Assembly: GCA_017532155.1 (NCBI GenBank)
Contig: JAFXJP010000059.1
Coordinates: 1-59,874 of the forward strand
Origin: Clostridia bacterium
GTDB taxonomy: Bacteria; Bacillota; Clostridia; Christensenellales; Aristaeellaceae
Reading direction: 5' to 3'
Length of the DNA: 59,874 nucleotides
This document shows positions 39,057 to 42,868 of this stretch, one piece after another. Position 1 is the stretch's first letter, and every line of letters begins with the position of its first letter. Below the pieces are notes generated by a model. It saw only the letters and a program-made list of their open reading frames with translations, searched no databases and was not told the DNA's origin. A program made the position numbers and the translations under genes.

Positions 39057-39713
39057 TTATTCAGCAGCAGGAGCGTCGGTCGCTTCCACAGCGGGTTCAG
39101 GCATCGTGCGGGCCAGGTCATTGGGGATGGTTTCCATGCCAAGGGCATTGATCTGGCCGGGCAGGGAGAGGGTCATCACGCCGTTGAAGTGCACGCGCAC
39201 ATGCTCTTCCAGGGTGGGCAGGATGATATCCTCGGGCAGACGAACCATGACGACGCCGTGCAGCTCGGTTTCCATCAGGAAAGCGCTCTCTTCTTCGGTT
39301 TCAATCAGCTCGGTCACGATGCCGTCCATGGAATAGGCATACAGATGATCAGCAGAGATCTGCGGGGGCAGAGAGCGGGTCATCATGCCATTGTAATCGG
39401 CAATGATAAACTGGCCGGGGAGGATTTCTTCAAATTCGTTGATGGTTTCCTCGTGCAGATGGATGACGATTTCCTCGCCCTGATTGGTGAGAATCAGGAT
39501 GCTGCCGTCCTCCATCACTTCCATTACAAAACCGGAGACAAAATAGTTTTCGGGGCAATCAGCGATTTCTTCCGTCATTTCTTCAGCAGATTCACTTTCT
39601 TGCGTTACAACGGTGTCGTTTTCGGGCACGGCGGTGGGCTCGGTCTGCTCAGCGATGGCAAAGCAGGTGACCAGCAGGATCGCGGCGAGCAGGAAAATCA
39701 GGGTCTTTTTCAT
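39057..39713 (-). CDS. Secreted protein with internal repeat, unknown function
   Basis: 218 residues. Signal peptide MKKTLIFLLAAILLVTCFAIA with cleavage before EQTEP, then a Thr/Glu-rich acidic segment to about 55. The folded part (about 56-200) has two related halves: GQFIIADYNGMMTRSLPPQI (first) and HVRVHFNGVMTLSLPGQINA (second), each preceded by a strand pair, such as ILILTNQGEEIVIHLHEET and MVRLPEDIILPTLEEH. This looks like a duplicated small beta domain. No family recognised. GGAGGA precedes the start. The C-terminal tail is again Pro/Ala/Glu-rich. Confidence 0.7.
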   Translation of the reverse strand: MKKTLIFLLAAILLVTCFAIAEQTEPTAVPENDTVVTQESESAEEMTEEIADCPENYFVSGFVMEVMEDGSILILTNQGEEIVIHLHEETINEFEEILPGQFIIADYNGMMTRSLPPQISADHLYAYSMDGIVTELIETEEESAFLMETELHGVVMVRLPEDIILPTLEEHVRVHFNGVMTLSLPGQINALGMETIPNDLARTMPEPAVEATDAPAAE

Positions 39714-39837: not shown

Positions 39838-39865
39838 AAAAAGCCCGGAAAAAATCCGGGCTTTG
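39838..39865 (-). terminator. Rho-independent terminator of the csoR-copA operon
   Basis: On the minus strand AAAGCCCGGA / TCCGGGCTTT with a 5-base loop, followed by TTG; it lies 14 bases after the copA stop. The 124 bases between this and the start of the secreted protein gene hold no gene; they contain only AT-rich sequence, with no promoter that I can call with confidence. Confidence 0.88.
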
Positions 39866-39878
39866 CGTTAGGGTTTCA

Positions 39879-40091
39879 TTATTCTTCGATGGAAGTGACG
39901 ACGTAGTCTTCATCTTCAACGGCTTTTTTGAGAACGTCGCTGGAAATATTGGCGGCGAGGGTGACCACGGCCTTGTTTTCTTCCAGGCTTACGTTTACTT
40001 CGGCAACGCCGTCCACGGCCTTGAGGGCTTTTTCTACATGCGCCACGCAGCGCATGCACATCATACCGTCGATATGCAGAGTTTTTACCAT
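39879..40091 (-). CDS. Candidate internally initiated CopZ-like copper chaperone (3' end of copA)
   Basis: ATG at 40091 is in frame with copA and is preceded by GGAGG (40104-40100) with 8-base spacing, better than the ribosome site of many genes here. Initiation there would give a free 70-residue HMA protein that starts [15 protein letters not shown] and ends at the copA stop, the exact size of CopZ (69 residues in B. subtilis). A small CCGGCTGAGCCGG hairpin (40112-40124) precedes the site. CopZ delivers Cu+ to CopA and CsoR, and no separate copZ gene is present in the locus. That the ATG is used is inference from sequence; the sites themselves are seen. Confidence 0.5.
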
Positions 40092-42437
40092 TTCAGTTTC
40101 CTCCATTTTTTCCGGCTCAGCCGGTTCGTTTATATCCGTCATGCCAAAGAGAAACTCCGGCAGGGGAAGCGGTTTGCGGTTGCTCTGCGCATGCGGCTTG
40201 CTGGGATCAAAAAGATTGAGGCGCAGGGCGTTGGAGACGACGCAGAAGCTTGAAAGGCTCATGGCGGCGGCGCCCAGCATGGGGCTGAGCTGAATGCCAA
40301 AGAGGGGAATCAGCGCGCCGGCAGCCACGGGAATGCCAATACAATTGTAGAAGAATGCCCAGAAAAGATTCTGGTGGATATTGCGCAGCACCTGACGGGA
40401 GAGGCGAATGGCAGCGGCGACGTCCCGGAGCGAGGATTTCATCAGCACGACATCCGCTGCATCCAGTGCGACGTCCGCGCCGGCGCCGATGGCAATGCCG
40501 GTGTCTGCGCGGGTGAGGGCGGGCGCATCGTTGATGCCGTCGCCAACCATCGCCACCTTGCCAAATTCCGAAAGCCTGCGCACGACGGACTCCTTATCTC
40601 CGGGCAATACATCAGAGACAACGGCCTGAATGCCAACCTGCGCGGCAATGGCCTGGGCGGTGCGGCGGTTATCGCCGGTGAGCATGATGGGTTCAACGCC
40701 CATTTCGCGCAATTCCTGAATGGCTTGGGCGCTGTCTGGCTTGACAGTATCAGCTACGGCGATGACGCCAAGCAGCTGATTGCCCAGGGCGAAATACAGC
40801 GGCGTTTTGCCCTGAGCCGAGAGCGTTTCGCCCTTTTCTTTCCAGGCGGCGGAAAGCAGCTTCTTTTCACGCATCAGCGCGGCGTTGCCGCCCAATGCCG
40901 TCTGGCTGTCCATTTCTCCGCGTACGCCGTGACCGGGCAGGGCGGTGAAGCGGTCAATGGAGGGGATGTCAAGGTTTTCATCCTGCGCCTTTTCGCGGAT
41001 GGCGCGGGCAAGCGGATGTTCGCTGTTTTCCTCCAGTGCGGCCGCCAGCGTCAAAAGCTTTTCCCGGGAAATGCCCTCGGCGGGCAGAATATCCGTAACG
41101 GACGGATGGCCGACGGTGACGGTGCCTGTTTTATCCAGTACGACAAACTGCGTGCGGCCGGCGGCTTCAAGGGAAGCGGCGGTCTTAAAGAGAATGCCGT
41201 GCCTGGCGCCCAGGCCGCTGCCCACCATGATGGCAACGGGCGTAGCAAGGCCCAGCGCGCAGGGGCAGGAGATCACCAGCACGCTGATGGCGCGGGCGAG
41301 GGAATAGCCAAAGTCCTTGCCGGCCAGCAGCCAGACAAACAGGACGATCACGGCAATTGAAATGACCGTGGGGACGAAAATGCCCGATACCCGATCGGCA
41401 ATTTTGGCGATTGGCGCCTTGGTAGCGGCGGCGTTTTCTACCATTTCGATGATCTGATTCAGGGTAGTATCATCGCCAACGCGCGTGGCCTGGCAGGTGA
41501 GCGCGCCGTGCTGATTGATGGTGGCAGCGCTGACGTGGCTGCCGGCAGCTTTATCCACCGGCAGGCTTTCGCCTGTCAGGGCGGATTCGTTCACAGCGCT
41601 TTCGCCGGAAAGCACCACGCCGTCCACCGGAACGCTTTCGCCAGGACGGACGATGAAGGTATCGCCGATGCGCACATCCTCGGCGGCAATGGTTTCTTCT
41701 ACGCCGTCGCGAAGGACATGGGCTGTTTTGGGCGCCAGATCCATCAGGCTTTTGATGGCGTCGGTGGTTTTGCCCTTGCTGCGGGCTTCCAGGGTTTTGC
41801 CCACGGTGATAAGCGTGAGGATCATGGCGGCGGATTCAAAGTAGAGCTCATGCAGATGATGCGCGGCGGAGGCCTGATCGGCGGTCATCATAAAGACGAC
41901 GGCCGTGCTGTATACGAAGGAGGCCAGGCTGCCCATGGCAACGAGCGTGTCCATGTTGGGCGCTTTATTCATCAGGCTTTTAAAGCCGCTGATGAAAAAG
42001 CGCTGGTTAATGATCATAATGATGGCGGAAAGCAGCAATTGATACAGCGCGATGGCAAGCGGATTGCTGGCAAAGGCGGCGGGCACAGGCCAATTCCACA
42101 TCAGATGGCCCATGGAGACGTACATCAGCGGCAGCAAAAGAAGGAGGGAGACAAAGAGCCTTTGCAGAAGCCTGGGCGTTTCGTGATCCTCCAGCGCTGC
42201 GCGGTCGTGCTTTTTGCCGGTGCTTTTTTCTCCTTCAACGGATGCGCCGTAGCCGCCGGCGATGACGGCGTCGCAGATTTTCTGCGCTGTGGCAGGAGCG
42301 GAAAAATCGACGATCATGGAATTGGTCAGCAGGCTGACAGAGACGCTTTCAACGCCCTGAACACCCATGACGGCCTTTTCGACGTGCGCGCTGCAGGCGG
42401 CGCAGGTCATGCCGGTGACGGAAAATTTCTGGTTCAT
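39879..42437 (-). CDS. copA: Copper-exporting P1B-type ATPase with N- and C-terminal HMA domains
   Basis: 852 residues. N-terminal HMA domain with [10 protein letters not shown] (C12, C15); eight transmembrane helices; CPC motif in [12 protein letters not shown]; phosphorylation site [21 protein letters not shown] and [10 protein letters not shown]. It pumps Cu+ out at the cost of ATP. After the last helix and a linker ([18 protein letters not shown]) comes a second HMA domain of 70 residues with [10 protein letters not shown] (C794, C797), which has its own ribosome site and ATG inside the gene (see the entry at 39879-40091). AAGGAAG precedes the start. It lies 12 bases after csoR and is controlled by copper through the CsoR operator at 42798. 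Confidence 0.96.
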
Positions 42438-42449
42438 ATGATGTCTTCC

Positions 42450-42758
42450 TTATTTCAGTTTTTTGATCAGGTCAACCGCTTCGGAAATGATTTCAGTGTT
42501 GCCCTGCTGGATTTCTTCCACCATGCAGGTTTTCATGTGATCCTGCAAAATGATGTAGCCGAAATTCTGCAGCGCGCTTTCCACGGCGGCGATCTGGGTG
42601 AGGATATCGCCGCAATAGCGGTTATCATCCAGCATATTGCCAATGCCTGACAGCTGGCCGATCATGCGGTTTAAGCGGTTTTTGAGCGCCTTTAGCGTTT
42701 CGGCGTCGCGCGGCGTGTGCTTGTGATGGCAGCATGCGGGGGAAAGATTATCAGCCAT
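42450..42758 (-). CDS. csoR: Copper-sensing repressor CsoR (metal-sensitive DUF156 family)
   Basis: 102 residues, four-helix fold without a classical HTH. The Cu+-binding triad Cys-His-Cys is present: C49 (DNRYCGDIL), H74 and C78 (QDHMKTC). The N-terminus has an extra Cys/His cluster (PACCHHKH) that could add metal sites. Cu+ binding releases DNA and opens copA. AGGAGG is 4 bases before the ATG. It is the first gene of csoR-copA, with its operator within its own promoter. Confidence 0.94.
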   Translation of the reverse strand: MADNLSPACCHHKHTPRDAETLKALKNRLNRMIGQLSGIGNMLDDNRYCGDILTQIAAVESALQNFGYIILQDHMKTCMVEEIQQGNTEIISEAVDLIKKLK

Positions 42759-42792: not shown

Positions 42793-42821
42793 ATTATATA
42801 CCCCTATGGGGTATGTGTCAA
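42793..42821 (-). promoter_or_regulatory. Sigma-A promoter of csoR-copA
   Basis: On the minus strand a perfect TTGACA (42821-42816), 17-base spacer, perfect TATAAT (42798-42793). The spacer is occupied by the CsoR palindrome. Confidence 0.9.
42798..42814 (-). promoter_or_regulatory. CsoR operator
   Basis: ATACCCC-TAT-GGGGTAT, a perfect 7-bp palindrome matching the GC-rich core of known CsoR boxes (TACCC...GGGTA). Its place between -35 and -10 explains repression without copper. Confidence 0.85.
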
Positions 42822-42833
42822 ACGGGAATTGAA

Positions 42834-42868
42834 CAAAAAATATGGCCGCCAGCTCAGCTGGCGGCCAT
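42834..42868 (-). terminator. Rho-independent terminator of the FMN-binding lipoprotein gene
   Basis: Perfect 13-bp stem ATGGCCGCCAGCT / AGCTGGCGGCCAT with a one-base centre; on the minus strand the stem is followed by ATTTTTTG. Confidence 0.9.

Follow-up and report, generated by a model that had tools for sequence, protein, structure and literature searches.

The window, by which we mean the whole 59,874-nucleotide stretch of Clostridia DNA that was analyzed, carries a csoR–copA gene pair on its minus strand (Table 1). The copA product has the E1-E2 ATPase and HAD hydrolase domains, two HMA stretches by Pfam, and the CPCALG and DKTGT motifs that together mark a CopA (Cu(I) P1B-1 ATPase), and the CsoR-type repressor gene upstream is suggestive of Cu(I) as the substrate of this predicted pump. 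The gene that adjoins copA (39057–39713, minus strand) encodes a 218-residue protein that begins with a signal-like stretch and matches DUF3221 below threshold, and a 12-pair terminator-like hairpin (42842–42868, minus strand) lies between an FMN-binding gene and the csoR–copA promoter.

Table 1. Features of the csoR–copA locus, with positions in the window
Feature	Position	Strand	Basis
copA, predicted Cu(I)-type P1B ATPase, 852 aa, N- and C-terminal HMA, CPC and DKTGT motifs	39879..42437	−	translation, Pfam, HMA matches
N-terminal HMA coding part	42249..42425	−	HMA match
CsoR-type repressor gene (PF02583), 12 nt upstream of copA, same strand	42450..42758	−	Pfam
Perfect consensus sigma-70 promoter TTGACA-17-TATAAT before csoR–copA	42793..42821	−	promoter scan
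Intrinsic terminator-like hairpin and T run directly 3′ of copA	39840..39864	−	by eye; absent from the hairpin scan's list
Proposed internal gene 'copZ', 70 codons and stop, in the copA frame, one HMA with CMRC	39879..40091	−	translation; CopZ structure matches
Putative internal ATG start; the first Cys is 11 codons downstream	40089..40091	−	sequence read
Putative internal Shine-Dalgarno (SD) GGAGG, 8 nt from the ATG	40100..40104	−	sequence read
Stretch before the start, mostly variable linker from last membrane helix to C-terminal HMA	40092..40190	−	tail comparison
Hairpin CCGGCTGAGCCGG upstream of the SD, without counterpart in relatives	40112..40124	−	structure scan, relatives compared

An initial annotation of this DNA had pointed out that copA ends in a second HMA domain, and that GGAGG, a gap of eight nucleotides and ATG 40091 open a run of 70 codons to the copA stop; on re-reading, these coordinates are correct. 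Translation from this ATG gives 70 residues that end at the copA stop codon (39881–39879), with Cys at positions 12 and 15, and the N-terminal HMA domain has its CxxC at the same positions, as had been claimed. The predicted product is thus a single HMA domain of ~70 residues with CxxC, as is typical of CopZ/Atx1-like proteins; it aligns over nearly its full length with CopZ structures (1k0v, E 1.4e-9; 2qif, E 8.7e-9) and also matches 6ff2 and 1cpz, with most of their length covered. The draft genome (82.5% complete) yields only two HMA matches, both in copA, in agreement with the annotation's statement that the locus has no copZ.

By what route might the C-terminal domain be made on its own? 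A separate transcript for this part of copA was rejected, the minus-strand promoter scan having found no promoter-like site beyond 41887 toward the internal start. A frameshift gene of the E. coli type was also rejected: no X XXY YYZ slippery heptamer was found in the window's stretch after the N-terminal HMA domain, and the commonest heptamer in this region occurs only 17 times in 285 loci, so that there is no shared frameshift site. The hairpin CCGGCTGAGCCGG described just upstream of the internal SD is present (40124–40112), but as a control element it was discarded, being absent in the sister locus L004 and different or absent in the eight other loci shown. Taken singly, the SD and ATG of the window's gene could be chance, from which they stand out weakly: given the protein and the gene's own codon use, the probability of an SD at the internal ATG is 0.19, and it is 0.26 for L004.

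Comparison across relatives is more telling. A start was scored where an ATG lies 8–16 codons before the first Cys, and an SD where there is a 5-nt match 4–12 nt upstream. A first wider set combined loci of the window's family with named genomes, taken as the best 80 of 568 relatives found. Of its 118 tails, 116 carry the domain; among these 116, 87 have the ATG (80 with an SD) and three have GTG or TTG with an SD. For the class sample, 391 genomes were searched and 244 had a match; its loci are the 29 matches listed besides the window and 120 fetched regions (one repeated), mainly with matches reaching the query end fetched first and those that end earlier, or have stops between pump and HMA, fetched later. 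Because it was drawn only from the matches listed, this sample leans to closer relatives. Rows in which the contig stops before the domain (L091, L097) and exact repeats of tails were dropped.

The class sample holds 115 fused CopA loci in 34 family codes, and the C-terminal placement of the domain can hardly be called uncommon, as had been asserted. There are 101 loci with ATG and SD, 2 with GTG and SD, 6 with ATG only and 6 with neither, and 33 of the 34 families have at least one locus with start and SD. Altogether, fused loci at the class-sample stage numbered 227 (178 ATG and SD, 5 alternative start and SD, 15 ATG without a 5-nt SD, 29 neither). The window's family (40 further regions, 36 new rows) has 74 fused loci, namely 53 with ATG and SD, 5 with ATG only and 16 with neither; lack of the start is therefore commoner close to the window than across the class sample. 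Adding family and plasmid records brings the total to 267 fused loci (206, 5, 19 and 37, respectively). One locus tallied as an alternative start (L099, GTG and SD) is probably accidental, its SD being misplaced for codon −11 and a copZ adjoining it. Among named species, ATG and SD are found in Ruminococcus albus 7 (pRUMAL02), Subdoligranulum variabile and Butyrivibrio fibrisolvens D1; Roseburia sp. 831b has an internal ATG with a weaker GAGG, and in Collinsella aerofaciens and Enterococcus faecalis copA and copZ are separate and mutually in frame. Three annotated fused records list the full pump only, in a gene table that is incomplete by its own description.

Across the class, the pattern of SD and start clearly exceeds chance. 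In a synonymous null, for which codons were resampled from each gene's own usage, an SD would be expected at 83.9 ± 6.0 of all 193 ATG loci and is found at 178; the corresponding figures are 38.8 ± 4.5 and 101 for the 107 ATG loci of the class, and 12.0 ± 2.5 and 33 when the first ATG-bearing locus of each of 33 families is taken, the one count in these conservation tests that does not treat related loci as independent. The reverse test gives the same picture: in 203 of the 267 loci an SD is placed to serve a start at codon −11 relative to the Cys, and a start codon is present in 200 of these (at codon −11, 183 ATG and 3 GTG; 14 with ATG or TTG one or two codons off), leaving three with none (L049, L303, L328), whereas the 64 loci without a placed SD have 12 ATG and 2 GTG at codon −11. 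In some loci the start Met is swapped for Val or Leu with the SD kept (GTG in L116, L168 and L169; TTG in L132). Among controls, an SD precedes 122 of 6485 other in-frame ATGs, 8 of 75 linker ATGs elsewhere and 0 of 51 second Met codons at −7; at copA's own start region it is found in 81 of 136 cases. Additionally, RNA around the internal start is open and A/T-rich (median MFE −3.3 vs −16.8 kcal/mol at 889 control ATGs), an openness due in part to lower G+C (0.34 vs 0.517 at controls). In other words, the nucleotides of the SD and start codon are conserved beyond protein constraint, as for a working in-frame internal start.

Could the motif instead be kept for the protein, with a K-E-E-x-x-M linker required by the pump? 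The commonest peptide over the SD is KE followed by varied residues, but the SD occupies three codon registers (0, 1 and 2 in 146, 30 and 2 of 178 loci), such that it is carried by unlike peptides (KEE, KGE and ERK in the wider set; MEE and TEV in the genus), and Lys-Glu before the start is coded AAGGAG in 108 of 122 cases compared with 173 of 822 elsewhere in the same ORFs; we find a protein motif hardly credible. Very improbable, too, is a role in which the SD merely pauses the ribosome, giving the last membrane helices time to insert ahead of HMA domain synthesis. Such a role fits a start that, where measured, lies 12–89 residues (median 33.5) past the last helix, yet this distance varies (sd 12.3 residues) while the SD keeps 8 nt from the start codon in 128 of 178 loci (the start itself is at codon −11 relative to the Cys in 158 of these 178), and pausing needs no start codon. 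We also judge it improbable, if less starkly so, that the SD and start are inert leftovers of a copZ–copA fusion. In-frame two-gene copA–copZ neighbors do exist, and on the tree the fused rows show no fewer than 11 changes of start state, gain and loss not being distinguished (this tree left out three ORFs without CPC, and L099 and ATG-only rows were recoded or omitted there); decay, however, would be expected of relics in a linker of such variable length, and SD and start persist in all families but one, with the start codon kept in all but three of the placed-SD loci. The best reading, and in our estimation a highly probable one, is that internal initiation in copA yields a free CopZ-like protein, as the initial annotation had proposed; the class-wide conservation of SD and start argues for it.

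The genus of the window presents a more mixed picture. All 11 genomes have a CopA match, some split over contigs, and the junction between copA and the HMA domain is readable in each: SD and ATG can be made out clearly in the window, L004 (genome G003) and L007 (G006), the ATG of L008 (G005) follows a weak SD, and 7 of the 10 congeners keep the C-terminal domain without SD and ATG. The initial annotation had suggested that relatives be searched for the SD and ATG and had named homologues with the domain but without them as evidence against an internal start; most of the congeners are such homologues, while in the class sample the start is the rule. Internal initiation might hold for the class while the window's own site is lost, weak or decaying, as in most of the genus. 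The site's SD is only 5 nt, and its RNA is more structured than at most loci (−14.9 kcal/mol, close to the control median); the window is one of the weaker examples of an internal start. Against decay, GGAGG-N8-ATG is kept in L004, which is 71% identical, under a different peptide (MEETEM vs TEVPQM), and neither the window's genome nor that of L004 has an HMA match beyond copA's own, whereas the matches of each of the other nine genomes include a stand-alone HMA ORF. We regard loss or decay in the window as unlikely, albeit the most serious of the alternatives.

Do lineages without the internal start have copZ elsewhere? Directly 3′ of copA, 0 of 166 loci with ATG and SD have a stand-alone HMA ORF, compared with 12 of 28 loci that have neither and 11 of 19 in which CopA has no C-terminal domain (0 of 189, 12 of 36 and 13 of 21 with later loci included; loci with <300 bases downstream are excluded). 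The contrast of 0/166 with 12/28 is strong in raw counts that ignore kinship (Fisher 7e-12), but the 12 start-less loci with an adjacent copZ fall in few lineages, and an independent-pairs test gives 11 pairs over all rows (about 3 for, 0 against, p about 0.25) and 6 over fused rows (about 1 for, p 1); complementarity as proof was set aside, its significance being lost once kinship is respected. The window's family adds 8 start-less loci without a neighboring copZ. At the level of family genomes, a third HMA match is lacking in 17 of 52 with the start and in 0 of 16 without it (p 0.007), or in 2 of 18 of the latter (p 0.12) if G004 and G010 are counted, in which the contig with the N-terminal domain is missing and the second HMA match is a stand-alone ORF. 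The other 35 start-bearing genomes have further HMA matches, and a third match is sometimes something other than a stand-alone protein, i.e. tandem C-terminal domains or other ATPases. Thus, complementarity between the internal start and a separate copZ is suggestive.

The HMA proteins 3′ of copA in L099–L101, L106, L107, L111 and L128 form a distinct copZ-like group, mostly with GMMCGMC (GMMCGHC in L106, GMMCNMC in L128) and with a basic tail in common, most ending FSLF-like. In L102 and L105, just 5′ of copA, lies an ORF of ~130 residues whose product combines an HMA domain with a CCGGGG stretch and has a hydrophobic N-terminus. CopA has tandem C-terminal HMA domains in L038, L101, L114 and L133, and in L101 and L133 the last of these has a start-like NNM/NM stretch of its own ahead of it. 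In L240–L243, L286 and L287, a separate copZ lies in the reading frame of the upstream copA; the first four came from a search that favored in-frame copA–copZ pairs.

The mechanism that we propose is one csoR–copA transcript read twice. Ribosomes from the copA start would make the whole pump including its C-terminal HMA domain, whereas others would bind the internal SD and begin at ATG 40091, giving a free 70-residue HMA protein that would carry Cu(I) to the pump as CopZ does. From sequence comparison we infer that the cell produces this small protein, that it binds Cu(I) and acts in the service of CopA, and that the arrangement arose when a downstream copZ was fused to copA with its ribosome-binding site retained. 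It is probable that copA encodes two proteins across most of the class by virtue of a fused copZ with its own ribosome-binding site, independent of the E. coli frameshift, and that start-less lineages use a copZ elsewhere.

In E. coli, copA gives rise to CopA(Z) by a programmed −1 frameshift in its 5′ part (Meydan 2017, Drees 2017, via portions of PMC7558416, PMC5009743 and PMC13178939), and the product is given as 70 residues in PMC5009743. As described there, that system resembles the one proposed here in drawing pump and free chaperone from one copA, with small products of 70 residues in both cases (predicted in the window), and differs in that a C-terminal domain and an internal start take the place of the 5′ frameshift. 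The two-gene copA–copZ operons (Enterococcus, Collinsella, L240–L243) likewise have a pump followed by a small HMA protein, same strand and in frame (six loci), but with a stop codon between the genes where the window has one continuous ORF. In-frame internal starts make C-terminal isoforms of several bacterial proteins, e.g. from E. coli infB and clpB; the window's gene is like these in having an internal SD and start within a translated ORF and unlike them in that it is predicted to yield an entire domain belonging to a different protein family, apparently from a fused neighbor gene. No CopZ made by internal initiation appears in the titles or abstract openings of the open-licence PMC matches listed, and since the literature covered is limited to those matches, we provisionally consider the fused internal-start copA a new, further form of the one-gene pump-and-chaperone theme.

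If the proposal is true, there would be two unrelated routes from pump gene to chaperone, which would hint that coupling the chaperone to the pump in a fixed manner is favored. The apparent absence of copZ in some anaerobes may reflect annotation that omits a gene inside a gene. Additionally, a conserved SD and start at a domain border within an ORF could serve as a general test for hidden domain-isoform genes after fusion.
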